Shown: positions 2,438 through 14,624 of the stretch, in pieces | Numbering within the stretch: position 1 is the stretch's first letter | How the letters are laid out: every line of letters begins with the position of its first letter | NCBI RefSeq assembly: GCF_002968335.2 | Contig: NZ_CP134398.1 | Span: 5,270,001 to 5,334,000, forward strand | Direction of reading: 5' to 3' | Length of the DNA: 64,000 nucleotides | Source of the DNA: Mycobacterium sp. ITM-2016-00316 | Lineage (GTDB): Bacteria; Actinomycetota; Actinomycetes; Mycobacteriales; Mycobacteriaceae | Program-made: the position numbers and the translations under genes | Notes under the pieces: generated by a model | Told to the model about the DNA's origin: nothing | The model's input: the letters and a program-made list of their open reading frames with translations, nothing else | Databases searched by the model: none

Positions 2438-3202
2438 CTACCCGCTCCTCATGTACAGCTGGCCCTGCAGGGTATTGGCGACCTGGACCTTGGTGCCGTA
2501 GAGGTGGGTCAGCAGGTCCGCGTCGACCACCTGATCGATGGCGGCGTGGTGGGCGTGCCCGTCGAGCAGGTACACCGCACTGTCCAGGACCGACAGCAGC
2601 GGGTTCAGATCATGGGCGACAACGAGAATGGTCACGTCGTATTGGGAGTTCAGCCGGGAGAGCAGCTGGACGATCTCGTGCTGGTTGCGCAGGTCGAGCG
2701 CGGCCAGCGGCTCGTCGAGGATGAGCAGCCGCGGATGGGACACCAGGGCATTGGCCAGGGCGATGCGTTGACGCTGGCCGCCGGACAGCTCGGACACCCG
2801 CCGGTCGGCGAACTCGACGGCCTCGACGGCCTGCAACGCCTCGGTGACCCGGGCCCGGTCGGCCGCGGTGTCACGGTGCACCCCCCACCGGCGGCCGGTG
2901 AGCCCGAGCATCACGGCGTCACGCGCCCGGATCGCCTCGCCGGCACCGGCCACGTAGTCCTGCGGCACATACCCGATGGCATCGTTGTTCGCCCCGGGCC
3001 GCCCGCCGAGCACCTGCACCGATCCGGATGCCACCGGCAGCAGGCCGAGGACCACCTGCAGCAGCGTCGACTTGCCCGAGCCGTTGGATCCGATCACAGC
3101 CACGATGCCGCCGGCGGGGATCGCGAAGGTGCCTTCCGACCAGATCAGCCGGCCGCCACGGACGACGCTGACATCCTCGAAGACAAGCGCGTTATCTGAC
3201 AC
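2438..3202 (-). CDS. znuC: Zinc ABC transporter ATP-binding protein (ZnuC type)
   Basis: ABC ATPase of about 254 residues with Walker A GSNGSGKST, signature LSGGQRQR, Walker B LLILDEP and a switch histidine (VVAHD). The chosen start is the GTG at 3202 (VSDNALVFEDV), which overlaps the stop region of the binding-protein gene; an in-frame start at 3217 would add five residues. It energises the permease encoded immediately downstream. The family is shared by zinc and manganese importers, so specificity comes from the partners. Confidence 0.88.
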   Translation of the reverse strand: MSDNALVFEDVSVVRGGRLIWSEGTFAIPAGGIVAVIGSNGSGKSTLLQVVLGLLPVASGSVQVLGGRPGANNDAIGYVPQDYVAGAGEAIRARDAVMLGLTGRRWGVHRDTAADRARVTEALQAVEAVEFADRRVSELSGGQRQRIALANALVSHPRLLILDEPLAALDLRNQHEIVQLLSRLNSQYDVTILVVAHDLNPLLSVLDSAVYLLDGHAHHAAIDQVVDADLLTHLYGTKVQVANTLQGQLYMRSG

Positions 3203-4253
3203 CGAGCGCCTCGGCAAGGGCGGTGAGTTGATCCACCTGCCAAGCCTCGAACGTCGGCGCGCCCGGCGCTACCGTTTCGGTCACATCGACCACCGGAACC
3301 CCGGCGGACTCGGCGGCGGCGCGCAGCTGTTGGGGCACCGAGCCCTCGGTCTGGGTGTTGTAGATCAGCACGTCGACGCCGCGATCCGACAGCAGCCGCA
3401 GGAAGGCGTCGAGGTCGGCCGGCGAGGGATCGGACTCGTTCGACGCAGCGACCTGGTAGCCCGGCGGGGTGCGGTTGGCCAGCCCGACTTCGGCGGCCAT
3501 ATCGTCGAACAGGCTCTCGGTGGCGGCGTAGCTCTTGCCGGTGGCGCCGGCCTTGATCTCGGCGATGAGATCGCGGTACGGCTGCAACGCCGCAGTGAAC
3601 TCGGTGTTGCGGGCGCTGAAGTATTCGCCTGCGGCCGGGGCGAGTTCGGTGAGTTCGGCGGTCACCGCAGTGGCGACATCGGTGACCGCGATCGGGCTGT
3701 ACCAGGCGTGCGGGTTGGCACCGTCACCGTGCCCTTCGTGACCAGGCTCCTCGTGACCAGGCTCCTCGTGACCGGGCTCCTCGTGACCGGGCTCCTCGTG
3801 CACCTCGTGATCGTGGCCCTCGTGATCGCCGGCGAGGATCGTCATCGCATCGACGACCGGCGCATCCGGGGCGGTGCTCTCGGCGAGCTTGGCGGCCCAT
3901 TCGTCATAGTGGCCGCCGTTGATCACGACCAGCTGGGCACCCTCGAAGGCCGCCGCATCCGAGGGAGTCGGTTCGAAATCGTGCGGGTCGACCGAGGAGC
4001 CGGACAGCACCGTGGTCACATTGGCACACGACCCGGCCAGTGCCGACACGATCTTGCCCCATTGGTCGACGCTGACCACGACCTCGACGGGCTCGGTCGG
4101 GCAGTCCCCGGCCTGGGCCGCGGTCGACGCCGGAGCCGGTTCATCGCTCGTCCCGCAGGCGCTGAGAGCGAACGGAACGGCCAGGAGCAGGCCCGCGGCC
4201 AACGCGCGGGACGACACAAATGTGATCACGCCGATAACGATAACCGTTTGCAT
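3192..4253 (-). CDS. znuA: Zinc ABC transporter substrate-binding lipoprotein with expanded His loop (ZnuA type)
   Basis: Cluster A-I metal-binding protein of up to 353 residues. It has a lipoprotein signal ending in LSAC, so it is anchored outside the membrane. The family zinc ligands fit: an early DPHDFEPTPSD segment, NPHAWYSP after the loop, and a late AASNESDPSP segment. A very long acidic His-rich loop (residues ~140-180) contains four tandem GHEEP units. The first in-frame ATG (4253) lies inside a Zur-like palindrome; GTG codons at 4229 or 4217 would give a normal short signal peptide (SSRALAAGLLLAV) and may be the true start. It is first in the znuA-znuC-znuB operon and diverges from the COG0523 GTPase. 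Confidence 0.9.
   Translation of the reverse strand: MQTVIVIGVITFVSSRALAAGLLLAVPFALSACGTSDEPAPASTAAQAGDCPTEPVEVVVSVDQWGKIVSALAGSCANVTTVLSGSSVDPHDFEPTPSDAAAFEGAQLVVINGGHYDEWAAKLAESTAPDAPVVDAMTILAGDHEGHDHEVHEEPGHEEPGHEEPGHEEPGHEGHGDGANPHAWYSPIAVTDVATAVTAELTELAPAAGEYFSARNTEFTAALQPYRDLIAEIKAGATGKSYAATESLFDDMAAEVGLANRTPPGYQVAASNESDPSPADLDAFLRLLSDRGVDVLIYNTQTEGSVPQQLRAAAESAGVPVVDVTETVAPGAPTFEAWQVDQLTALAEALGVR
3736..3795 (-). repeat. Four tandem 15-bp units inside znuA
   Basis: Four consecutive copies of tcgtgaccRggctcc (+ strand) encode four GHEEP pentapeptides in the His-rich loop. Units differ only at one A/G position, so the array is recent or kept homogeneous. Copy number could vary between strains without breaking the frame. 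Confidence 0.9.
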
Positions 4254-4310: not shown

Positions 4311-5489
4311 ATGACAGCCCCCACCCTGCTTCCCGTCACCGTCCTGTCCGGCTTTCTCGGAGCCGGCAAGACCACATTGCTGAACCACATCCTCACCAAC
4401 CGCGAGGGCCGCCGCGTCGCGGTCATCGTCAACGATATGAGCGAGATCAACATCGACGCCGCCCTGATCGCCGGACAGGGGCACCTGGAACGGGATGATT
4501 CCCCGGGTCGCTACGCTCCTGCCCTCCGAACCGAAGAGAAGCTCGTCGAACTGACCAATGGCTGCATCTGCTGCACCCTGCGCGAGGACCTGGTCGAGGC
4601 CGTCGGCACGCTGGCCCGACAGAACCGCTTCGATCAGCTGGTCATCGAGTCGACGGGTATCTCCGAGCCGATGCCGGTGGCGGCCACCTTCGAGTGGGAG
4701 TTCGAGGACGGCTTCCAGCTGGGACAGCTCGCCACATTGGACACGATGGTGACCGTCGTCGACGCTTCCACCTTCCTGTCCGAGATCGCCAGAGGTGAAT
4801 CCCTTGCCGAGCGGGACCTTTCCGCGGGTGAGGGCGACGCACGCAGCATCGCCGACCTGCTCACCGACCAGGTCGAGTTCGCGGATGTGTTGCTGCTCAA
4901 CAAGACCGATCTGGTGAGCCCGGCACAACTCGACACGGTCGAAACCCTGTTGCGCCGGCTCAACCCCACCGCCAAGCTCATCAGGACCGATCACGGTGCC
5001 GTCGAGATCGGCGAGGTGCTGGGCACCGGACTCTTCGACCCGATCGCCGCGGCGCAGTCCCCCGGCTGGGACGAGGAGATTGCCGACGGGCACACACCGG
5101 AGACCGAGGAGTACGGCATCAGCTCGATGACCTTCCGGTCCGACCGGCCTTTCCACCCCCAGCGTCTGGCCGACGCGCTCGCCCAGACCACCAGAGTGCT
5201 GCGCAGCAAGGGATTCTGCTGGATCGCCAGCCGCCCCACGATCGCCGCCATCTGGTCACAGGCCGGGCCGAACCTGGTGATCGAACCGGCCCAGTACTGG
5301 TCGAACACCGAGATCACCCCCGGCCAGGAGATCGTCTTCATCGGCGTGAAACTGGACCGCGACAAGGTCCATCGCCTCTTGGACGAGGCGATTTTGACCG
5401 ACGACGAAGTCGCCGAGGGGGAACAGGCCTGGCTGGCCTACTCCGACCCGCTCCCCGCCTGGGGTGTGACCCAACAACATTCACACTGA
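4311..5489 (+). CDS. COG0523-family zinc metallochaperone GTPase (CobW/ZigA type)
   Basis: This 392-residue G3E GTPase has Walker [10 protein letters not shown] (residues 14-22), the hallmark CxCC metal motif GCICC (C85, C87, C88), an ESTGISEP segment, a guanine-specificity LLNKTDL motif and a C-terminal CobW domain. Members that are Zur-regulated are thought to deliver zinc to client enzymes under starvation. Support here is the strong Zur-like box and AAGGAG just upstream, and divergence from znuA. Residues ~61-73, just before the CxCC motif, look like an inserted stretch that coincides with a dispersed DNA repeat. It ends at a strong hairpin terminator. Confidence 0.9.
4501..4528 (+). repeat. 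Dispersed short repeat, copy A (inside the COG0523 gene)
   Basis: The core GGTCGCTACGCTCCTGCCC matches copies near 25265, 49651, 49691 and 58380 in the same orientation. Here it is read in frame as SPGRYAPAL, residues ~64-72 of the GTPase. Confidence 0.65.
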
Positions 5490-5537: not shown

Positions 5538-6752
5538 TCAGTGGTCGTCGTGGCCGACCGCGCCACTGAGTTCATTCGGTGTCTGTTCCAACGTCACCGA
5601 TTCGGTCACGGTGCCAGCGGCCAGATCCACCAGATGAATCTGTTTGGTCGCCGGGTCGCTCACATATACCGCGTCCTCACGGGTGAACACCGCCGGGGCC
5701 GGCTGCTGCCAGTCATCAGGTTCGGTCCACGGCCCGGTCACCTCGATCGACGTGACCAGGTCGCCGGTGACCGGATCGAAGACGTGCAGCTTGCCGTCGG
5801 TCCCCAAGATGAGCGCCTCGGCCTGAGGTCCGCGCCCCAGCGAACGGAACCAGTAGCTCACACCCTCGGGAAGTGGCACCAACTTCAGCTGGTCGGTGGT
5901 GGTGTCGATGAGCGAGAACTGGTTGGGCCGCTCCATCTCGGCATCGGCGTCGACCTTCATATCGCCGAGCACCACGGGGGAGTCCTCATGTCCGCGGGTG
6001 TTGCCGATCCGGCCGTACGGGGTCGGGCTGGCGATCTTGGTGAATTCACCGTTCGCGTAGGTGAGGACACCGTTCTCGCAGCCGATGACGACGACCTCAT
6101 CGGCGGCAACCGTCTCGCCGTGCACGCCCGGGCATTCCTCGTTGCGGGCGATCTCACGCTCACCTCCTTCGAGCGCCACGGCCCCGACCCGGGTGTCCGG
6201 GTTGCCGAGCGAGTGGACAAGTGTGCCGTCGGTAAGGATCACCGCAACACCGTGATGCGGTTCGGGGGTCTTCCAGTTCCGGGTCTCGGGCATGCCGCCG
6301 GCTTCCAGCGCGTGCGGATCGAAGGCGGTGATCTCGCCGGTGCCGTCGGCGAACAGCACGGTGTTCTCGCCGTGCGGGGTGACGTGGCCCGCCTCGGCAC
6401 CCGGGAACGTGTCGTCGGTCAGCGTGCCACCGGCGGCGTCCAGAATGCGCCAGCCATCGCTGGTGGTGATCAGGAGGTGGCCGTGATCACCGGCGGGATT
6501 GATCCGCAGGAAACCGTCGAGCGGAATATCCTGCTTGACCTCCAAGGTCTCACCGTCGAGGACATACAGTCCGCCGTCGTAGGTGGTCACCAACGGCTCG
6601 ACGATCGGCGCGCTCGGCGCCGCCGAGGCGGTACCCGAGGTCTCGGAAGTGCCCGTGCTGTCTGCACTGTCGGTGCCCGACGAACATGCTGCCAGCGCCG
6701 CCGCCGTGAACGTCGCGGCTCCGGCACGGTACAACCACCGCGGATTGGACAT
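5538..6752 (-). CDS. aztD: AztD-like zinc metallochaperone lipoprotein (beta-propeller)
   Basis: This 404-residue secreted protein has a lipoprotein-type signal (ALAACSS at ~residues 20-24) followed by a Ser/Thr-rich spacer and repeated short beta-propeller blades (YVLDGETL, LHVFDPVTGDL, IHLVDLAAGTV). It ends in the acidic/His tail GHDDH and has a cysteine pair around NEECPG and IGCENG. AztD of the AztABC system passes zinc to the AztC binding protein in the periplasm. A good GAAGGAG site precedes the ATG, 39 bases after aztC. A paralogous propeller is fused to the permease of the same operon. Confidence 0.75.
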   Translation of the reverse strand: MSNPRWLYRAGAATFTAAALAACSSGTDSADSTGTSETSGTASAAPSAPIVEPLVTTYDGGLYVLDGETLEVKQDIPLDGFLRINPAGDHGHLLITTSDGWRILDAAGGTLTDDTFPGAEAGHVTPHGENTVLFADGTGEITAFDPHALEAGGMPETRNWKTPEPHHGVAVILTDGTLVHSLGNPDTRVGAVALEGGEREIARNEECPGVHGETVAADEVVVIGCENGVLTYANGEFTKIASPTPYGRIGNTRGHEDSPVVLGDMKVDADAEMERPNQFSLIDTTTDQLKLVPLPEGVSYWFRSLGRGPQAEALILGTDGKLHVFDPVTGDLVTSIEVTGPWTEPDDWQQPAPAVFTREDAVYVSDPATKQIHLVDLAAGTVTESVTLEQTPNELSGAVGHDDH

Positions 6753-6791: not shown

Positions 6792-7700
6792 TTATCGCAG
6801 TCCGGTGATGATGGCGTCGGTGTTGGCGCGCATCATGTCGAGATAGGTGTCGGCCTGCGAGCCTGGCGGACTGAGGGATTCGCTGTAGAGCGGCACGATC
6901 TGCACTTGTACGCCGGCATCCTGTGCCAAGACCCGCGCCAGCTTTTCCGGCTGCGACGAGTCGACGAAGATGGCGGGCACCCGGGCGGATTGGATCGCGC
7001 CGACCAGCGACTGCAGGTCGGATGCACTCGGGGCGGCCAGTGTGGTGCCACTGGGCACCACGGCACCGATCACCTCGAAATCAAAGCGCTGCGCCAGATA
7101 TCCCAGCACATGATGGTTGGTCACCAGCTTGCGCCGCTCCGTCGGGAGCGTTGCGAAACCCTGGCTCATCGTGTCGTCGAGCTGGCGCAGTTGTGCGCGA
7201 TAGTTCTCGGCGTTGCGGGCGACGGCGTCGACGTCGACACCGGCGACATCGCGCACGATCGCCTCCTCGATGACATCGACGGCGGTGATCATCCGTTCCG
7301 GATCGGTCCAGAAGTGCGGGTCCGGCATGCCCGCGCTGTCGCCCTCGGCGTACTGGATCGGGTCGATGCGATCGCCGATCGCGAGCGTCGACACGCCATG
7401 CGAGGCAGCACTTTCGACATTTCGGGTGACGTTCTCTTCGAGTCCGAGACCGTTGTAGACGATGAGGCCGGCGCTGTTCATCGCGGCGGCGTCCTGCGCC
7501 GAGACTCCGAACGAGTGTGGATCGGCGTTGGGTTGCATCAGAACCCGGACCGCGGCGGCGTCCCCGACGATGTTGCGGACGACGTCGCCGAGAATGTTCG
7601 TGGTCACCACGATCTCGCCACTGCTGCCGGACCCGCCACCGCAGGCCGTGGCCAGGACGCTGATCAGAGCCGCGAGTAGTGCCAGGGCCCGCCGTGTCAC
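6792..7700 (-). CDS. aztC: Zinc ABC transporter substrate-binding lipoprotein (AztC type)
   Basis: Cluster A-I metal-binding protein of 302 residues with lipobox LATAC. Family zinc-ligand positions are visible: NADPHSF, PDPHFW, TNHHVLGY and a late IFVDSSQPE. Unlike the ZnuA-type protein at 3192-4253 it has no long His-rich loop, as expected for AztC proteins that receive metal from AztD. Its GTG start overlaps the stop of the upstream permease fusion gene (GTGA), so translation is coupled. Zinc preference is inferred from the AztD partner and the Zur-like box at the operon head. Confidence 0.82.
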   Translation of the reverse strand: MTRRALALLAALISVLATACGGGSGSSGEIVVTTNILGDVVRNIVGDAAAVRVLMQPNADPHSFGVSAQDAAAMNSAGLIVYNGLGLEENVTRNVESAASHGVSTLAIGDRIDPIQYAEGDSAGMPDPHFWTDPERMITAVDVIEEAIVRDVAGVDVDAVARNAENYRAQLRQLDDTMSQGFATLPTERRKLVTNHHVLGYLAQRFDFEVIGAVVPSGTTLAAPSASDLQSLVGAIQSARVPAIFVDSSQPEKLARVLAQDAGVQVQIVPLYSESLSPPGSQADTYLDMMRANTDAIITGLR

Positions 7701-9694
7701 CGGCCGGCCTCGACCATGAGTCCGGGCGTGACCTCGGTGCGCAGGGTGCGAGCGATGCGCAACCCATCGGCATAGTCGATCTCGTAGACCTCCTTGGCCG
7801 CCGCGTTGTTGACATAGGCGCGGTCGGAATCGAGATCGACGACCGGCTGCGGCCCCCCGGCGGGTACGCCACCGGAGATCAAGGGAATCCGCGCTGTCTC
7901 CGCACGAGTGTTGACGTCGAAGGCACTCAGAGTTCCGTCCCGGCGCAGTACCAATACGGTTCCGTCACCGGCGGTATTGGTGGCGACGGCATCCGGAACG
8001 CGGATGGGCGTCCAGGCGCGCTGCCGGCTGTCGAGCACCCACACCGTTCCCTCGGCCACCCCGGCGAACACATCGGAACGGTCCCGGTGTTCCATCTGAG
8101 CCGGATGTTGCGCCGGCGCGTCCGCGGGATAGGGCATCGCGGTGACCGTGAGATCCTTCTCGCCGCCGGTGACCCGGACCGCGCCGTTCTGACAGCCGAA
8201 CACGACAGCCTTGCGGGTCGCCCTGGCCCAGGTCGGGCCGGCACATTCAGCATCGAGTTCGGTCGTACCGGCGTCACCGGTGACCTGGAGCCGACCACCG
8301 TTGCTCACGGTGACGATCCTGCTGCCATAGGGCACCACGGTCGCGGTGTCCGGTGGGACCGTCAGGCCCTCCGGGGTCTCGATCACCTTGGTGCCGAGCA
8401 TTTCCCGATCGAAGAGGTCCACCGCACCGGCCTCGGACCGGACCGCCACCGTGGAGTTGCTTGCGGCCACCGCCGCGACCGGGAGATCGAGGGTCGCCAC
8501 CTCGGCCGCGTCGCTGGCGAAGTAGTGGTAGTGCTCGCCATGGTCGAAGGTCCACGCGCCGGCATCCACGATGACCGTCCGCTCCCCGGCCCGCAAATAA
8601 CCGAACCGACCGTCGCCGTAGAGCGCAGAAACCGCTCCGTAGGAACCGATCTGGGTCTCGATCTCGTCCACGGCCTCATACACCGACGTCGCTCCGGTGG
8701 CCGGGTCGACCAGCACCAGCTTGGTCAGCGCACCGTCGATTTCACGGGCGCCGTCCTCGATGTCCACCCCGTCGCCGGTGGAGGCCGATGAGCTCTCCGG
8801 CGGCGCCGGGGGCGCTTGCGTGCTGGAACACCCCACCGCGACGACCGCCGTGGCGGCGACAACCGCGACCGGCTTCCAGCGGTTGCGCAGCAATGCCAGC
8901 GCGGCCGAGGCGAAGAACAGCAGCACCGCCACACCGGCGATGGTCGCCCCGCCCGCTGTGCCGGCGTACCAGGAGATCAGCAGCCCGAGATAGACCGCGG
9001 CACTGCCGATCACCGCGGACAACAGCATCACCCGGGGGATGGAGCGTGCCCACATGAGCGCGGCAGCCGGCGGCGCGACGAGCAATCCGAGCACCAGAAG
9101 CGTGCCGACGACGTGGAAAGAGGCGACCATGGCCACCGCCATGAGCACGGTCAGCGCGGGAACGGCCAAATTCGGGCGCAGTCCCAGGGTGACGGCCTTG
9201 CGCGGATCGAACGTCACCGCCACGAAAGCCCGGTGGCCGGCGATGACGGCGACAACGGTCAGCAGCAGTGCCGCCGCGAGGATGACGAGATCATTCGTGC
9301 GCACCGCGAAGACGTCTCCGAACAGGAAGCCGGTGAGGTCCACCGCGAAGCTCTGTGACCGCGACACCACGACGACGCCGAGGGCAAGCATGCCGACCAG
9401 CAGCAGACCGATGCTGGTATCCGAGGCCAGCTTCGAGGAACGCCCTATTGAGGCGACCCCGAACGCCATGACCAGCGCCGCCACCAGCCCGCCGGCCATC
9501 AGGCTCACCCCCAGCAGCGCCGCGACGGCGACCCCGGGCAGCATGCCGTGCGTCATCGCCTCGCCCAGAAACACGCTGCGGCGCAGCACAACCCAGCACC
9601 CCACCAGAGAGCACAGGCAGGCGGCGATCACACCGGCCACCAGTGCCCGAAGGACCATGTCGGCCTGGAACGGGTCAATCAGCCAGTGCGTCAT
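7697..9694 (-). CDS. aztB: Fusion of AztB-type zinc permease with a lipoprotein-like beta-propeller
   Basis: The protein has about 665 residues (GTG at 9703 would add three). The first ~272 form an ABC-3 metal permease with about eight membrane segments (GEAMTHGMLPG, DPRKAVTLGL, VVGTLLVLGLLVAPPAAA). After a short basic linker (RNRWKPVA) comes another hydrophobic helix ending in the lipobox-like VAVGCSS. A Pro/Ser-rich spacer and a ~370-residue propeller follow. The propeller shares local patterns with the AztD-like protein downstream (VVFGCQNG versus VVIGCENG; late VYEIDY versus IHLVDL blades) and carries a HGEHYHYF histidine cluster. Family permeases are normally ~280 residues and free-standing. 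The fusion would tether a metallochaperone-like domain to the transporter. Confidence 0.85.
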   Translation of the reverse strand: MTHWLIDPFQADMVLRALVAGVIAACLCSLVGCWVVLRRSVFLGEAMTHGMLPGVAVAALLGVSLMAGGLVAALVMAFGVASIGRSSKLASDTSIGLLLVGMLALGVVVVSRSQSFAVDLTGFLFGDVFAVRTNDLVILAAALLLTVVAVIAGHRAFVAVTFDPRKAVTLGLRPNLAVPALTVLMAVAMVASFHVVGTLLVLGLLVAPPAAALMWARSIPRVMLLSAVIGSAAVYLGLLISWYAGTAGGATIAGVAVLLFFASAALALLRNRWKPVAVVAATAVVAVGCSSTQAPPAPPESSSASTGDGVDIEDGAREIDGALTKLVLVDPATGATSVYEAVDEIETQIGSYGAVSALYGDGRFGYLRAGERTVIVDAGAWTFDHGEHYHYFASDAAEVATLDLPVAAVAASNSTVAVRSEAGAVDLFDREMLGTKVIETPEGLTVPPDTATVVPYGSRIVTVSNGGRLQVTGDAGTTELDAECAGPTWARATRKAVVFGCQNGAVRVTGGEKDLTVTAMPYPADAPAQHPAQMEHRDRSDVFAGVAEGTVWVLDSRQRAWTPIRVPDAVATNTAGDGTVLVLRRDGTLSAFDVNTRAETARIPLISGGVPAGGPQPVVDLDSDRAYVNNAAAKEVYEIDYADGLRIARTLRTEVTPGLMVEAGR

Positions 9695-9713
9695 GCCGTA
9701 CACTCTTAGCAGT

Positions 9714-9732
9714 AATGAATGTCATTATCAAT
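9714..9732. promoter_or_regulatory. Probable Zur box in the divergent azt promoter
   Basis: AATGAATGTCATTATCAAT has the same TGA-N9-TCA arrangement as the box at 4283. It overlaps the first ATG of the ATPase gene (9715) and contains a plausible minus-10 (GATAAT read leftwards) for the permease operon. A TACACT at 9699-9704 could serve as minus-10 for a nearly leaderless rightward transcript. Confidence 0.68.
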
Positions 9733-10377
9733 AAGGTGACCCCGGTCACCGCCCCCATCGACGTCGCCGGCCTGGACTTCAGCTACGCCGGCGCGCCGGT
9801 CTTCCGTGGGCTCGACCTGTCCATCCCGGCGGGGATGGTGACCGCCGTCATCGGGCCCAACGGCTGCGGCAAGTCGACATTGCTCGGGCTCCTGGCGGGC
9901 GTCCAGGAACCCGACGCGGGCAGCATCCGCACCGGCACGGACAACGTCGCGTTCGCCGTGCAGCGCAGTCGGGTGACCGACTCGTTTCCGGTGACGGTGT
10001 CCGAGGCCGTGATGATGGGCCGGTGGCGGCATCTCGGACTGCTGCGCCGGCCCAAGGCTGCAGACCGGGCGGTCGTCGAGCACTGGCTGGCGACACTGGG
10101 TATCGCCGAACTGCGGCACCGCACCCTCGGCGAACTGTCCGGAGGGCAGCGGCAACGTGTGCTGCTGGCACAGGCTTTCGTCCAACAGGCACCGCTGCTC
10201 CTGCTCGATGAACCCACCACCGGATTGGATGCCGCCGCGGCGGCACAGCTGATCGCGCACCTGCGACGCCTCGCCGACGACGGCACCACCGTCATCGCGG
10301 CCACCCACGACGCCGCCCTCATACAGGCCGCCGACGGCCGACTGGACCTGGCCGGGCAAGGCGGCGCACTAGGCTGA
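9715..10377 (+). CDS. aztA: Zinc ABC transporter ATP-binding protein (AztA type)
   Basis: ABC ATPase of 220 residues with Walker A GPNGCGKST, Q-loop FAVQRSR, signature LSGGQRQR, Walker B LLLLDEPTTGLD and switch H (ATHDA). It diverges from the permease fusion operon and shares its Zur-like box. The ATG at 9715 lies inside that box; a GTG at 9736 (VTPVTAPIDVAG) would give a slightly shorter protein that still contains the whole ATPase domain. A frame opening further upstream at 9643 runs through the permease gene and is unlikely to be used. Confidence 0.86.
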   Translation: MNVIINKVTPVTAPIDVAGLDFSYAGAPVFRGLDLSIPAGMVTAVIGPNGCGKSTLLGLLAGVQEPDAGSIRTGTDNVAFAVQRSRVTDSFPVTVSEAVMMGRWRHLGLLRRPKAADRAVVEHWLATLGIAELRHRTLGELSGGQRQRVLLAQAFVQQAPLLLLDEPTTGLDAAAAAQLIAHLRRLADDGTTVIAATHDAALIQAADGRLDLAGQGGALG

Positions 10378-10382
10378 ACGCC

Positions 10383-11147
10383 GTGACCTCGCACACCGTC
10401 GATCTGAACGCCGATCTCGGAGAGGGTTTCGGCGTCTGGAGCCTCGGCGACGACGACGCGATGCTGGACATCGTGACATCGGCCAACGTGGCCTGCGGGT
10501 TCCACGCCGGAGACCCTGCCGGGCTACTGCGCGTGTGCCGCGCCGCCGCGGCACGCGATGTGCGGATCGGCGCCCAGGTGGGTTACCGCGATCTGGCCGG
10601 CTTCGGCCGGCGGTTCATCGACGTGGATCCGCCGGACCTCACCGCCGACCTGATCTATCAGATCGGTGCCTTGTCGGCATTGGCACGGGCCGCCGGTATC
10701 GCGGTGTCCTATGTGAAACCACATGGTGCCCTGTACAACACGATCGTCACTCATGAAACACAGGCCCGGGCGGTCGCCGAGGCGGTTTACGCCGTGGATC
10801 CGGAGTTACCCGTGCTGGGACTCAGCGGTTCGGCATTCTTCGCCGCCGCCCAGAAACTCGGCGTGCGGACGGTTTCCGAAGTATTCGCCGACCGGGCCTA
10901 TCTTCCCGACGGACAGCTGGTGTCCCGCCGCGATCACGGCGCCGTATTGCACGACGCCGACGAAATCGCCGATCGGGTGCTGACGATGGTGACCGAGGGC
11001 CGGGTCACCGCCGTCGATCACACGAACATCCCGGTCAACGCCGAATCGGTGTGCGTGCACGGGGATTCACCCGGGGCGGTACAGATTGCCGCCGCAGTCC
11101 GGGCACGGCTCACCGAGCACGGGATCACGCCCGCTCCGTTCCGCTAG
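10383..11147 (+). CDS. pxpA: 5-oxoprolinase subunit PxpA (LamB/YcsF family)
   Basis: This 254-residue cytoplasmic protein begins DLNADLGEGFG and has NVACGFHAGDP and VKPHGALYN segments typical of the YcsF family. PxpA is one of the subunits of the ATP-dependent bacterial 5-oxoprolinase that opens pyroglutamate to glutamate. The PxpB and PxpC partners are not in this window. It starts with GTG five bases after the AztA stop, so it may share that transcript, although no zinc role is known. It converges on ctpC with a 23-base overlap. Confidence 0.88.
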   Translation: MTSHTVDLNADLGEGFGVWSLGDDDAMLDIVTSANVACGFHAGDPAGLLRVCRAAAARDVRIGAQVGYRDLAGFGRRFIDVDPPDLTADLIYQIGALSALARAAGIAVSYVKPHGALYNTIVTHETQARAVAEAVYAVDPELPVLGLSGSAFFAAAQKLGVRTVSEVFADRAYLPDGQLVSRRDHGAVLHDADEIADRVLTMVTEGRVTAVDHTNIPVNAESVCVHGDSPGAVQIAAAVRARLTEHGITPAPFR

Positions 11148-13281
11148 TCAGCTCGTAGCGGATGAGCCGGGAACTGTTGGCCACCACAGCGACCGAAGAG
11201 GCGTTGTGCAGCACCGCGGCCAACACCGGAGACAGCGCGCCGCCGGCGCCGATCAGCAGACCGAGCGCATTGACGGCGATGGACATGGCGTAGTTCTGCC
11301 GGATCACCTCGACGGCGCGCCCGCCCAGATCGCGGACATCGAGCAGCCGGCGCAGATCATCACTGGCCAGCGCCACGTCGGCGGTCTCCACCGCGACATC
11401 GGTGCCGCCCAGTCCCATGGCGATGCCGATATCGGCCTCGGCGAGCGCAGGCGCGTCGTTGACGCCGTCACCGACCATGGCCACGATATGCCCCTCATCA
11501 CGCAGTCCCCGCACGACGGCGAGCTTGTCCTCGGGCAGCACCTCGGCCTGCCACTCGGTGATACCGAGTTGATCGGCGACCACCGCGGCGGTGTCGGGAT
11601 GATCACCGGTGAGCATGACGATGCGGCGAACACCGCTGGCGCGCAACCGGTCCAGCACTTCGGCGGCCTCCGGGCGGATCTCGTCACGCAGGCTGATCAA
11701 GCCGATGAGCTTGCCGTCCACGGCCAGCAGCAGCGGTGTCTCGGACTGCTTACGCAGAGTATCCACCCACTCGGTGGCCTTCTTGGTGACCCGGACCTTT
11801 TCCTGCCGCAGCAGCGACGGACTACCCAGCAGCAGAGTCCGGCCGTCGGCCCTGGTTCGCATACCGAGACCGACCAGCACCTCGCACTCCTCGTGCGGCG
11901 GGATCTCGATATGTCGTTCCTGGGTGGAACGGATCACTGCCTCGGCCAGCGGGTGCCGGGAGTGGATCTCCGAACTCGCGGCATAGGCGAGGACCTGTTC
12001 GGGTTCCCAGTCCTTATGGAAGGCAACGAGATTGGTGACGACCGGGCGACCGACCGTCAGGGTGCCGGTCTTGTCGAACACCACCGCGTCGACCCGGCCG
12101 GCCTCTTCCAGGTGTGATCCGCCCTTGATCAGGATGCCGCGCCGGGCACCGTTGCCGATCGCGGCGCTGATCGCCGTCGGCGTGGACAGGCCCACCGCGC
12201 AGGGGCAGGCGACCAGCAGCATCGTCATCGCCCGGCGCACATCCCGGGTGAGCACCAGCGTGAGTGCCGACAGCAGGAACGAGGCGGGCACGAAGCGCCG
12301 GGAGAAACTCTCTCCCACCGTCTGGATGGGTGCGCGGTGTTGCTGGGCCTCCTCGACCCGGGAGATGATCCGACCGATCGTGGTCTCGCTACCGACCGCA
12401 TCGGCGCGCACCACCAGGCGACCGCGCACCACCACCGAGCCCGCGAACACCCGGACTTCGGCGGCGACGGCCACCGGCAGATTCTCACCGGTGATCGCCG
12501 ACTGGTCGACGATGGCCTCTCCGTCGACAATCACCCCGTCCACGGGTAGCGCCACCTGATCGTGCACCACCACCTCATCGCCGATCCGCAACTCGGCGGT
12601 GGCGATCTCGACCTCGGTCCCGTCGGGCAACCGCACCCAGGCGGTGTCCTGATTGCCCTGCAACAACTTGGCGATCGCCCGCCGGGTCCGCCGCAGCGTC
12701 AGATCCTGCAGATACTCGCCGATGTTCAACAGCCACAGCACTGTCAGCGCGACCACGTTCTCCCGGAGTACCAGGCTGGCGATCGTCGCAGCGCTGACCA
12801 GGACATCGGTGCCTGCGGACCGGCCGCCGCGCAGGGTCCGCAGTGCGCCACGCAGGAACGGATAGCCGGTGAAGACGGTGACGCCGGTGGCTGCCAACCG
12901 GCTGGTCGGGCCCAGCAGCGGCGGACGGGCGAACACGTACCGCCGCACCCCCAGCAGGACCAGGGCGGTGCCACCGACCGCCATGCGCAGCACATCGGCA
13001 TTGGTCACGTCGGCCGAACGCGGCAGCCGGACCGGAACAAGGTCCCGGGCGACATGTGCGGCTGCGTCGATGGCCGCGAACACGGCGTCCTTGTCGCAGC
13101 GTTTGGGTGAGTACCAGACGACGATCGACCCGGTGCGGGGATAGGCGTGCACCGCGCGTACGCCCGGCACCTGCTCCACCGCATCCTCGATGGCCACTGC
13201 CCGCGGCGAGTCGTTGCGGAACCAGGGCGCGTCCAGCCGAATTCGGCCCGCCGCGTCCGACAGGACGGTCAGGGCGACCAC
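11125..13281 (-). CDS. ctpC: P1-type metal-exporting ATPase CtpC
   Basis: P-type ATPase of 718 residues when started at the GTG at 13281, the same length I recall for M. tuberculosis CtpC. Visible features: an N-terminal HMA-like domain without a classical CxxC, a TGEN actuator loop, the CPC ion-binding motif, the DKTGT phosphorylation site, an HP motif (SRHPLAE) and a GDGVNDAP hinge. CtpC in M. tuberculosis exports zinc (older work proposed manganese) and depends on the small partner PacL1. Here that gene ends four bases upstream. The frame is open to 13401, but that extension lies within pacL1 and is not conserved. Confidence 0.9.
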   Translation of the reverse strand: MVALTVLSDAAGRIRLDAPWFRNDSPRAVAIEDAVEQVPGVRAVHAYPRTGSIVVWYSPKRCDKDAVFAAIDAAAHVARDLVPVRLPRSADVTNADVLRMAVGGTALVLLGVRRYVFARPPLLGPTSRLAATGVTVFTGYPFLRGALRTLRGGRSAGTDVLVSAATIASLVLRENVVALTVLWLLNIGEYLQDLTLRRTRRAIAKLLQGNQDTAWVRLPDGTEVEIATAELRIGDEVVVHDQVALPVDGVIVDGEAIVDQSAITGENLPVAVAAEVRVFAGSVVVRGRLVVRADAVGSETTIGRIISRVEEAQQHRAPIQTVGESFSRRFVPASFLLSALTLVLTRDVRRAMTMLLVACPCAVGLSTPTAISAAIGNGARRGILIKGGSHLEEAGRVDAVVFDKTGTLTVGRPVVTNLVAFHKDWEPEQVLAYAASSEIHSRHPLAEAVIRSTQERHIEIPPHEECEVLVGLGMRTRADGRTLLLGSPSLLRQEKVRVTKKATEWVDTLRKQSETPLLLAVDGKLIGLISLRDEIRPEAAEVLDRLRASGVRRIVMLTGDHPDTAAVVADQLGITEWQAEVLPEDKLAVVRGLRDEGHIVAMVGDGVNDAPALAEADIGIAMGLGGTDVAVETADVALASDDLRRLLDVRDLGGRAVEVIRQNYAMSIAVNALGLLIGAGGALSPVLAAVLHNASSVAVVANSSRLIRYELTSGTERA

Positions 13282-13285
13282 GGCG

Positions 13286-13570
13286 TCAGTGATCGTGATC
13301 GTGCGCGGTGTCGGCGACGGCCGGCGGCGGGACTTCCTCGCCGATGCGCTCCCGGGCCTCGGCGACCACATCGGCGACCGTGAGCCGGGCCGACTCGGCA
13401 CCCTCCTCGGCCTTGCGCACCCCGCGCAACGCCCATGAGGTCGCGGTCACGGAGGCCTCCCGAACCGGCGCCTTGGCGACCACCTTTTTGACCCCTTGGT
13501 AAGCCGCGGCGCCGACCACTCCGGTCACCACCGTGGATGCCGCCTTCGCCAGAAATACATGCAAGACCAT
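13286..13570 (-). CDS. pacL1: PacL1-like DUF1490 membrane metallochaperone
   Basis: This 94-residue protein has one N-terminal hydrophobic segment (VFLAKAASTVVTGVVGAAAY), a basic/amphipathic middle and the C-terminal motif AHDHDH. In M. tuberculosis the DUF1490 protein Rv3269 scaffolds the CtpC efflux pump and binds zinc through a C-terminal Asp-His motif of this kind. It lies immediately upstream of ctpC on the same strand with a 4-base gap, the same arrangement as Rv3269-Rv3270. Confidence 0.88.
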   Translation of the reverse strand: MVLHVFLAKAASTVVTGVVGAAAYQGVKKVVAKAPVREASVTATSWALRGVRKAEEGAESARLTVADVVAEARERIGEEVPPPAVADTAHDHDH

Positions 13571-13628
13571 CCCCCCACCCTAGTCCGAAAGCTGCATCAG
13601 GGTCATGGCGTATCCCATTGCTGGCAGA

Positions 13629-14624
13629 ATGGTCACGGTGACGGCCGGGACACATGCGACCCGCCGCATCGGTTCGATGCCAGTCCTGGTGGCCACCATC
13701 ATCGGGCTCGCCCTGATCGGCACGACAGCGCGCGAATTCGTGGCGGGCAACCCCGAGATCGCCACGGCCGCAACGGTGTTCTGCGGAATCTTCGTGCAGG
13801 CACTGCCCTTCCTCGCGCTGGGCGTTCTGGTCAGCGGCGCGGTCGCCACCTTCGTGACACCGGATCGCTTGGCGCGCTGGCTTCCTCGACGTCCGGCTGC
13901 CGCGATACTGGCCGCCGGTGTCGGCGGCGCCGCATTGCCCGGCTGCGAGTGCGGCTCGGTGCCCATCGCACGCAGACTGTTCGGCAACGGGACGGTCGGG
14001 GCGGCCGCGCTGACGTTCATGCTCGCCGCGCCCGCCATCAACCCCGTGGTGCTGATCGCCACGGCGGTGGCGTTTCCGGGTGAACCGTTGATGGTGCTGG
14101 CACGATGCATGGCCTCGTTGTTGACAGCCTTGACCATGGGCGCATTGTGGGCGAGGTTCGGTCAACCCGGATGGATTACGCGTAGCTTGCCTTTCCCTGC
14201 GCACCAATCGGATTCCCGCTTCACCACCTTCACCGAGGCGGCCCGGCACGATTTCCTGCAGGCGTCGTCCTTCCTGGTGCTGGGCGCTGCCGCCGCAGCG
14301 GCGCTGCACATCCTGGTCCCACCGTGGATGTTCGAGCATCTGGCGGGCCAGCTCGCCCTGGGCATCCTGGTGATGGCCGCGCTCGCCGTCGTGCTGGCGC
14401 TGTGCTCGGAGGCCGACGCCTTCGTCGCCGCCAGCCTGTCCATGTTGCCGCTGGTGCCGCGCCTGGTGTTCCTGGTGGTCGGGCCCGCCATCGACATCAA
14501 GCTCTTCGCGATGCAGGCCGGAATGTTCGGGCGCGCGTTCGCCATCCGGTTCGCACCGGTCACCTTCGTGGTGGCCACCGCGCTGGGCACCGGCGTCGGC
14601 CTGCTGATTCTGGGTGCGCGATGA
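13629..14624 (+). CDS. YraQ/UPF0718-type permease (DUF318)
   Basis: Integral membrane protein of about 331 residues with eight or more hydrophobic helices. It has the family motif GCECGSVPIARRL in the first half and a matching LCSEADAFVA segment in the second half, suggesting an internal repeat. The start is placed at the ATG 13629; ATG 13605 would add eight residues. Function is unproven: the family is linked by context to metal or metalloid transport. Its stop overlaps the ATG of the next gene (ATGA), so the two work together. Confidence 0.82.
   Translation: MVTVTAGTHATRRIGSMPVLVATIIGLALIGTTAREFVAGNPEIATAATVFCGIFVQALPFLALGVLVSGAVATFVTPDRLARWLPRRPAAAILAAGVGGAALPGCECGSVPIARRLFGNGTVGAAALTFMLAAPAINPVVLIATAVAFPGEPLMVLARCMASLLTALTMGALWARFGQPGWITRSLPFPAHQSDSRFTTFTEAARHDFLQASSFLVLGAAAAAALHILVPPWMFEHLAGQLALGILVMAALAVVLALCSEADAFVAASLSMLPLVPRLVFLVVGPAIDIKLFAMQAGMFGRAFAIRFAPVTFVVATALGTGVGLLILGAR

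Follow-up and report, generated by a model that had tools for sequence, protein, structure and literature searches.

The closest described counterparts of the system presented here are AztABCD of Paracoccus denitrificans and the AztD of Citrobacter koseri (PMC6689063, PMC7463823 and PMC7731109). Paracoccus AztD carries two zinc sites: pore residues H124, H167 and H218 form site 1, and H99, H102, D104 and H408, on a finger, form site 2 (PMC6689063). According to the authors, all of these ligands except H408 are present in at least 95% of homologues, only site 2 passes zinc to AztC, and what site 1 does is unclear (PMC6689063). In crystals of the Citrobacter protein, the site-2 finger of one molecule enters the pore of its neighbour (PMC6689063). 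Both organisms have one AztD with both sites. In contrast, a stretch of 64,000 nucleotides from a soil mycobacterium, Mycobacterium sp. ITM-2016-00316 (contig NZ_CP134398.1, positions 5,270,001 to 5,334,000; hereafter the window), encodes two propellers of the same predicted fold, with the same disulfide pair and one zinc site each. One is a free AztD lipoprotein with site 1; the other, called PROP here, has site 2 and is joined in frame to the permease AztB behind an internal lipobox.

The operon runs on the minus strand in the order aztB-PROP fusion, aztC, aztD, with the start of aztC overlapping the stop of the fusion and aztA diverging from near 9715. Its features, in window coordinates, are the following:

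9703/9694-7697, minus strand: AztB-PROP fusion in a single stop-free frame, 668 residues from GTG 9703 or 665 residues from ATG 9694
8888..9694, minus strand: AztB permease part of the fusion, start ATG 9694, with GTG 9703 also in frame
8831..8887, minus strand: internal signal peptide of lipoprotein type (residues 273-291), a charged stretch and then a short hydrophobic run
8828..8830, minus strand: codon of Cys292, the lipobox cysteine, invariant in the alignments of fused proteins
8750..8827, minus strand: tether (residues 293-318), variable and of low complexity in the alignment of relatives
7697..8749, minus strand: PROP, the AztD-like propeller (residues 319-668), plus the stop codon
8525..8542, minus strand: site-2 finger of PROP, H388-G-E-H391-Y-H393, aligned with site 2 of AztD
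6792..7700, minus strand: AztC, a solute-binding lipoprotein, identified by its ligand columns and by profile NF040870 (379.2 bits, cut-off 350)
5538..6752, minus strand: free AztD lipoprotein, with site 1 formed by H123, H167 and H211 and with site 2 absent
9715..10377, plus strand: divergent AztA ATPase, profile NF040873 (243.1 bits, cut-off 220) over the in-frame stretch 9709-10377

AztA, AztB, AztC and AztD of the window are all recognised by the NCBIfam profiles of the AztABCD families. The AztB part reaches 326.7 bits against NF040871 (cut-off 280, residues 7-259) and 189.8 bits against PF00950, and the free AztD 437.8 bits against NF038015 (cut-off 400), which bears out the proposal of the first-pass annotation that a second AztD-like protein belongs to the operon. 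Its description of the fusion as one uninterrupted gene also holds, as the frame is free of stops and the AztB-propeller junction, which reads RNRWKPVAVVAATAVVAVGCSS in the window, is common to all 120 relatives listed among 340 database matches (50-93% identical).

PROP is far more remote from known AztDs. Against NF038015 it scores 27.1 bits, far below the cut-off of 400 and over residues 486-651 only, and BLASTP between the two window propellers gives a weak match (24% over 192 residues). Searching solved structures with the PROP sequence alone returned chance-level matches, mostly ferredoxins (best E 0.0077), so that a comparison of folds was needed. The predicted model shows an AztD-like fold, as had been suggested for the C-terminal half, since residues 322-668 superpose on the AztD crystal structures; the predicted local distance difference test score (pLDDT) is below 50 at residues 275-308 and 310-313. 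The local pattern noticed earlier in both propellers, VVFGCQNG/VVIGCENG, holds one cysteine of the AztD disulfide pair, and both cysteines are present in 207 of 207 aligned propellers.

These 207 propellers come from 125 loci (L062-L086 and L095-L194), from which frames of at least 100 bits were read. Two of the loci, L062 and L080, are operon copies with frame breaks and were kept in the counts, each propeller being read as it stands; L081, where only pieces of AztB remain, yields none. The distribution of the two zinc sites follows the presence of PROP. AztDs with a PROP in their locus have site 1 in 83 of 83 cases and site 2 in none, and AztDs without one have both sites in 39 of 39. Conversely, PROPs with an AztD in their locus carry site 2 in 82 of 82 cases and lack site 1 in 79, the 83 and 82 not being independent observations. 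Three distant propellers with no AztD nearby (L192-L194), grouped with PROP by profile, have both sites. The window follows the rule: its free AztD keeps the three site-1 histidines, invariant in the 51 rows of one alignment (A2), and lacks the site-2 finger, while its PROP lacks the three pore histidines and has the finger motif HGxHx(D/H). Residues H388, G389, H391, H393 and Y394 are found in all of 121 aligned fused proteins. A further set, the top 80 of 521 confirmed stretches by match to the fusion, gives the same result, although it is not fully independent of the 125 loci because some genomes are shared (L205, L212, L198 and L204). Its 80 AztDs have site 2 in none and full site 1 in 79, the exception (L225) having Asp in place of the third histidine, and its 80 PROPs have site 2 in all and full site 1 in none. 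The alignments thus establish a complementary loss of zinc ligands between AztD and PROP.

The same pattern is seen within one genome. In G277, the AztD beside a fused PROP has no site 2, and a lone AztD at another locus has both sites (L160, L161). When 35 genomes whose AztD has both sites were searched with a PROP profile, 34 yielded that AztD only, the thirty-fifth being G277; these are the genome-wide checks of the 39 AztDs without a PROP in their locus, the other four being plasmid records. AztD lies at a contig end in L137 and L138. Among congeneric genomes, 48 of 49 that bear PROP also have AztD, and the exception is a genome 58% complete. Even in six mycobacterial loci without AztB or AztC (L068-L071, L150 and L151), PROP and AztD are kept and their sites are still split. 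In L068-L071 the pair stands beside a second ATP-binding cassette (ABC) system, possibly a new client, and in L159 (genome G158) two AztD copies, each with site 1 only, lie near one fused PROP. As regards sampling, the AztD order search gave 105 genomes with a match, 100 of which are within the 125-locus set; the window genome, whose propellers were aligned separately, and the partial matches G848, G946, G967 and G975 were left out. Of some 81 AztD-bearing genomes found in class or phylum searches only, four were fetched at length. Since loci were picked by AztD or fusion matches, PROPs without AztD could be missed, and the check for them covers the genus of the window.

More than one origin of the split seems likely, with few independent events (two or three). 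In a tree built after blanking the site columns, three changes are needed to account for AztDs without site 2, two of which are forced by well-supported branches. Loss of site 1 from PROP, in a tree without the L062 PROP, needs two changes, both forced. The PROPs of L114, L121, L124 and L126 cluster apart from the others; they stand beside AztDs without site 2, three of the four have both sites, and they possibly represent an independent split or a half-way state. The pair of propellers had first been taken for a relay of two chaperones. Such a relay is plausible in a recast form: PROP and the free AztD probably work together, but they are not redundant copies, since each keeps a different zinc site.

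The fusion itself is true, in frame and conserved among relatives. When 396 congeneric genomes were searched with it, 61 matched at an E value of 1e-30 or better. By our reading of the place table, permease and propeller are in one open frame in 35 of the 61 (one frame reaching the contig end and one being broken further on), neighbouring in different frames in six (in G169 through frame breaks), represented by a propeller without an AztB-like match in eight, and by permease matches only in 12. In the 80-locus set, 52 loci are fused (30 Nocardia, 15 Mycobacterium/Mycolicibacterium, 4 Lentzea, 2 Saccharothrix and 1 Amycolatopsis) and 28 unfused (27 Streptomyces and 1 [Kitasatospora] papulosa), a share that is no frequency because the loci were ranked by their match to the fusion. 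In the unfused form, for example in Streptomyces anulatus, the order is aztB-PROP-aztC-aztD and PROP is annotated 'hypothetical protein'. On a tree of 78 PROPs, from which that of L062 was again excluded, the fused state needs at least six changes, three of them forced by well-supported branches, fusion and fission being indistinguishable in this count. The recurrence of the fused state is evident from these sequences, and fusion apparently occurred in the window lineage and independently in others.

No feature of the junction is better conserved than the internal lipobox, which the first-pass annotation had already recognised. All of the 121 aligned fused proteins have Cys292, directly preceded by G, A or S and with the last R or K 13-17 residues upstream; the charged stretch before the lipobox is free of acidic residues in 112. 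The lipobox pattern applied, modelled on the published G+LPP pattern, is fitted by 119. In an alignment of 62 fused proteins (A1), Cys292 is the sole invariant column between 261 and 320 (62 of 62). A junction lipobox is present in 21 of 21 fused frames of one genome set and in 52 of 52 of the 80-locus set (51 by script and L211 by eye). It is also kept in L111, L113 and L116, in which a long low-complexity linker separates AztB from the signal peptide. Differing from an ordinary lipoprotein signal, that of the fused PROP follows a whole permease; it nevertheless resembles the N-termini of AztC and AztD in the window, which are of lipoprotein type. Unfused PROPs likewise begin with a signal peptide and a lipobox (read by eye in the sequence listing, unscored).

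Two outcomes can be envisaged for such a chain. We favour a permease-prolipoprotein cut by Lsp over a chaperone fixed to the channel, on an argument of conservation. Retention of one cysteine amid a variable stretch is expected if Lgt and Lsp still act at the junction; release is also suggested because PROP, where unfused, is a lipoprotein whose gene lies between aztB and aztC, and because fusions keep the lipobox even where extra linkers are inserted. The earlier proposal of a propeller physically fixed to the channel therefore stands as regards the single chain in frame and is doubtful as regards the fixed state. The alternative, which we hold to be a minority possibility to be taken seriously, is that the chain stays whole, with the short helix as a last membrane anchor and the propeller as a tethered docking or loading domain for AztC; Cys292 may even be lipidated on an uncut chain. 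The sequence does encode one chain, and permeases fused to extracytoplasmic binding domains exist, as in OpuA and GlnP. TAXI-GltS is another such case (PMC12344293). An invariant cysteine, the lipobox letters and a hydrophobic run of 13-17 residues are nevertheless more in keeping with a cut signal peptide than with an anchor, and unfused forms with the same gene order also speak against permanent tethering. A three-part AztB-PROP-AztC frame in L080 was considered as support for cleavage and dropped, since it has a frame break near the end of PROP and its AztC has its own ATG.

Which of the two propellers feeds AztC can be judged by analogy. Since transfer in Paracoccus uses site 2 only, the expected donor in the window is PROP and not the protein annotated AztD; PROP carries site 2, and AztC of the window keeps its ligand columns. 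The protein at 5538-6752 is an AztD by profile and fold, and its role as a donor to AztC is putative. On balance, and by no wide measure, we consider it probable that the locus encodes a five-component actinobacterial AztABCD with two chaperone paralogues, in which PROP is cut by Lsp and feeds AztC. The chaperone would consist of a free lipoprotein, AztD, with pore site 1, and of PROP with finger site 2. PROP, elsewhere a separate lipoprotein, would have become fused in frame with AztB without losing its lipoprotein signal peptide; the C-terminal end of AztB would lie in the cytoplasm and the short helix would take PROP outside, where Lgt and Lsp would modify the chain and cut it ahead of Cys292. 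PROP would then be a lipoprotein produced in step with its own permease, zinc would travel from PROP site 2 to AztC and on to AztB, and AztD, with zinc held at site 1, would either store it or supply PROP from upstream. Of these elements, the fusion, its recurrence, the lipobox and the ligand loss are read from sequence and the fold from a model; topology, cutting, binding and transfer are inferred.

A bolder version, which is possible but doubtful, is that the two halves of the split chaperone depend on each other: AztD would gather zinc in its pore, the PROP finger would enter that pore and take zinc from there to AztC, and the permease-prolipoprotein, cut by Lsp, would supply channel and chaperone one to one. 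If so, the AztD-PROP contact would be the functional version of what the Citrobacter crystals show as a site-1/site-2 contact, and two proteins with complementary sites are, under this hypothesis, the expected look of a site-1/site-2 route made permanent. Weak transient contact of sites 1 and 2 between molecules was later allowed for (PMC7463823).

Several points weigh against the proposed scheme. Three PROPs, those of L114, L121 and L126, have both sites. PROP has no counterpart of the C-terminal histidine of site 2 and has His in place of Asp104. The loop of AztC in the window is short and lacks the His-rich stretch found in rhizobial AztCs, and the AztC loop of Paracoccus is required for transfer (PMC6689063). 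Transfer from site 1 of one Paracoccus AztD to site 2 of another was tried and failed (PMC6689063). With only two or three independent losses of site 2, a pairs or sign test cannot reach 0.05. The literature covered gave no precedent for Lsp acting within a multi-span protein at an internal signal peptide.

It is unlikely, though worth stating, that the split is real and PROP is not a donor to AztC. In that case it may sense zinc, provide a scaffold, or serve the second zinc transporter or other surface proteins as a chaperone. The six loci that keep PROP and AztD without AztA, AztB and AztC, four of them beside a second ABC system, would suit such a role. Elsewhere, however, the place of PROP is between aztB and aztC, its fusion to AztB has recurred, and it carries the very site that transfers zinc in Paracoccus. 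Far less probable is that an internal start codon yields a free PROP lipoprotein beside or instead of the long chain: 15 of 21 fused frames do have an in-frame GTG, TTG or ATG ahead of the hydrophobic run, but its position varies among them and a Shine-Dalgarno-like stretch precedes such a codon in two only. An artefact of sequencing or assembly can be rejected with near certainty as the source of the fusion, for although two congeneric copies (L062 and L080) carry frame breaks, the fusion is intact in the 120 listed database clusters and in many complete genomes and conserved across relatives.

Covalent joining of importer parts to zinc chaperones or binding components has parallels. In AdcA, a ZnuA-like domain is fused to ZinT (PMC6689063), so that a zinc chaperone is likewise attached to an importer part, with the difference that ZinT is joined to the binding protein and PROP to the permease. 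In TAXI-GltS, the extracytoplasmic component occurs, as PROP does, both separately (as a predicted lipoprotein) and fused to the transporter; it is a secondary transporter with a binding protein, and the part of PMC12344293 drawn on describes no internal lipobox. The literature covered, which includes few subscription papers, yielded no account of an AztB-AztD-like fusion, of a split of the two sites, or of a multi-span permease with a conserved internal lipobox. If cleavage occurs as favoured here, channel and lipoprotein would be co-produced in an unusual way, through a conserved lipobox within the gene of a multi-span permease, and several lineages would make channel and chaperone one to one by way of a permease-prolipoprotein. 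FbcH of Bradyrhizobium, the cytochrome b/c1 polyprotein, is comparable in that it unites a membrane protein and an exported partner in one chain, with an internal signal sequence that is cut. FbcH is cut by signal peptidase I, unlike the lipoprotein route proposed for PROP.

The split also bears on annotation. Beside PROP, the label 'zinc metallochaperone AztD' designates a protein without the site known to deliver zinc, and the likely donor is annotated 'hypothetical protein' or hidden within 'zinc ABC transporter permease AztB'. With each site naturally carried by its own protein, both the function of site 1 and the site-1/site-2 contact become testable without mutants.

A related cluster, MSMEG_6045-6052 of Mycobacterium smegmatis, has by its annotation the same order of gene kinds and is controlled by Zur (PMC7174638). 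MSMEG_6051, called a 'pseudo' permease in that source, would correspond to the fusion by its place in the gene order. Chelation raises MSMEG_6049-6051 by 227 to 624.5 fold, and a zur mutation by 494 to 917 fold (PMC7174638). The window has one candidate element of this kind:

9712..9731, no strand assigned: imperfect palindrome, rich in A and T, between aztA and aztB; possible Zur operator, resembling the mycobacterial consensus for Zur

Compared with that consensus (PMC7174638), the palindrome has mismatches in one half. Similar AT-rich palindromes occur in many of the listed relatives, and chance may account for such resemblances.

A second zinc-type ABC system adjoins the operon at 4253-1577 on the minus strand, and its zinc-binding protein (3192-4253) has, by translation, a His-rich stretch of repeated EPGHE units. 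Between both zinc transporters lies a CobW-type GTPase (4311-5489, plus strand) that scores 488 bits as zinc chaperone ZigA, below the cut-off of 600. On the other side, PxpA at 10383-11147 is followed at 11125-13401 by a heavy-metal P-type ATPase (by eye); the zinc island of M. smegmatis likewise contains a P-type ATPase. Beyond these two genes, 13605-14624 encodes a multi-span permease-like protein (by eye).

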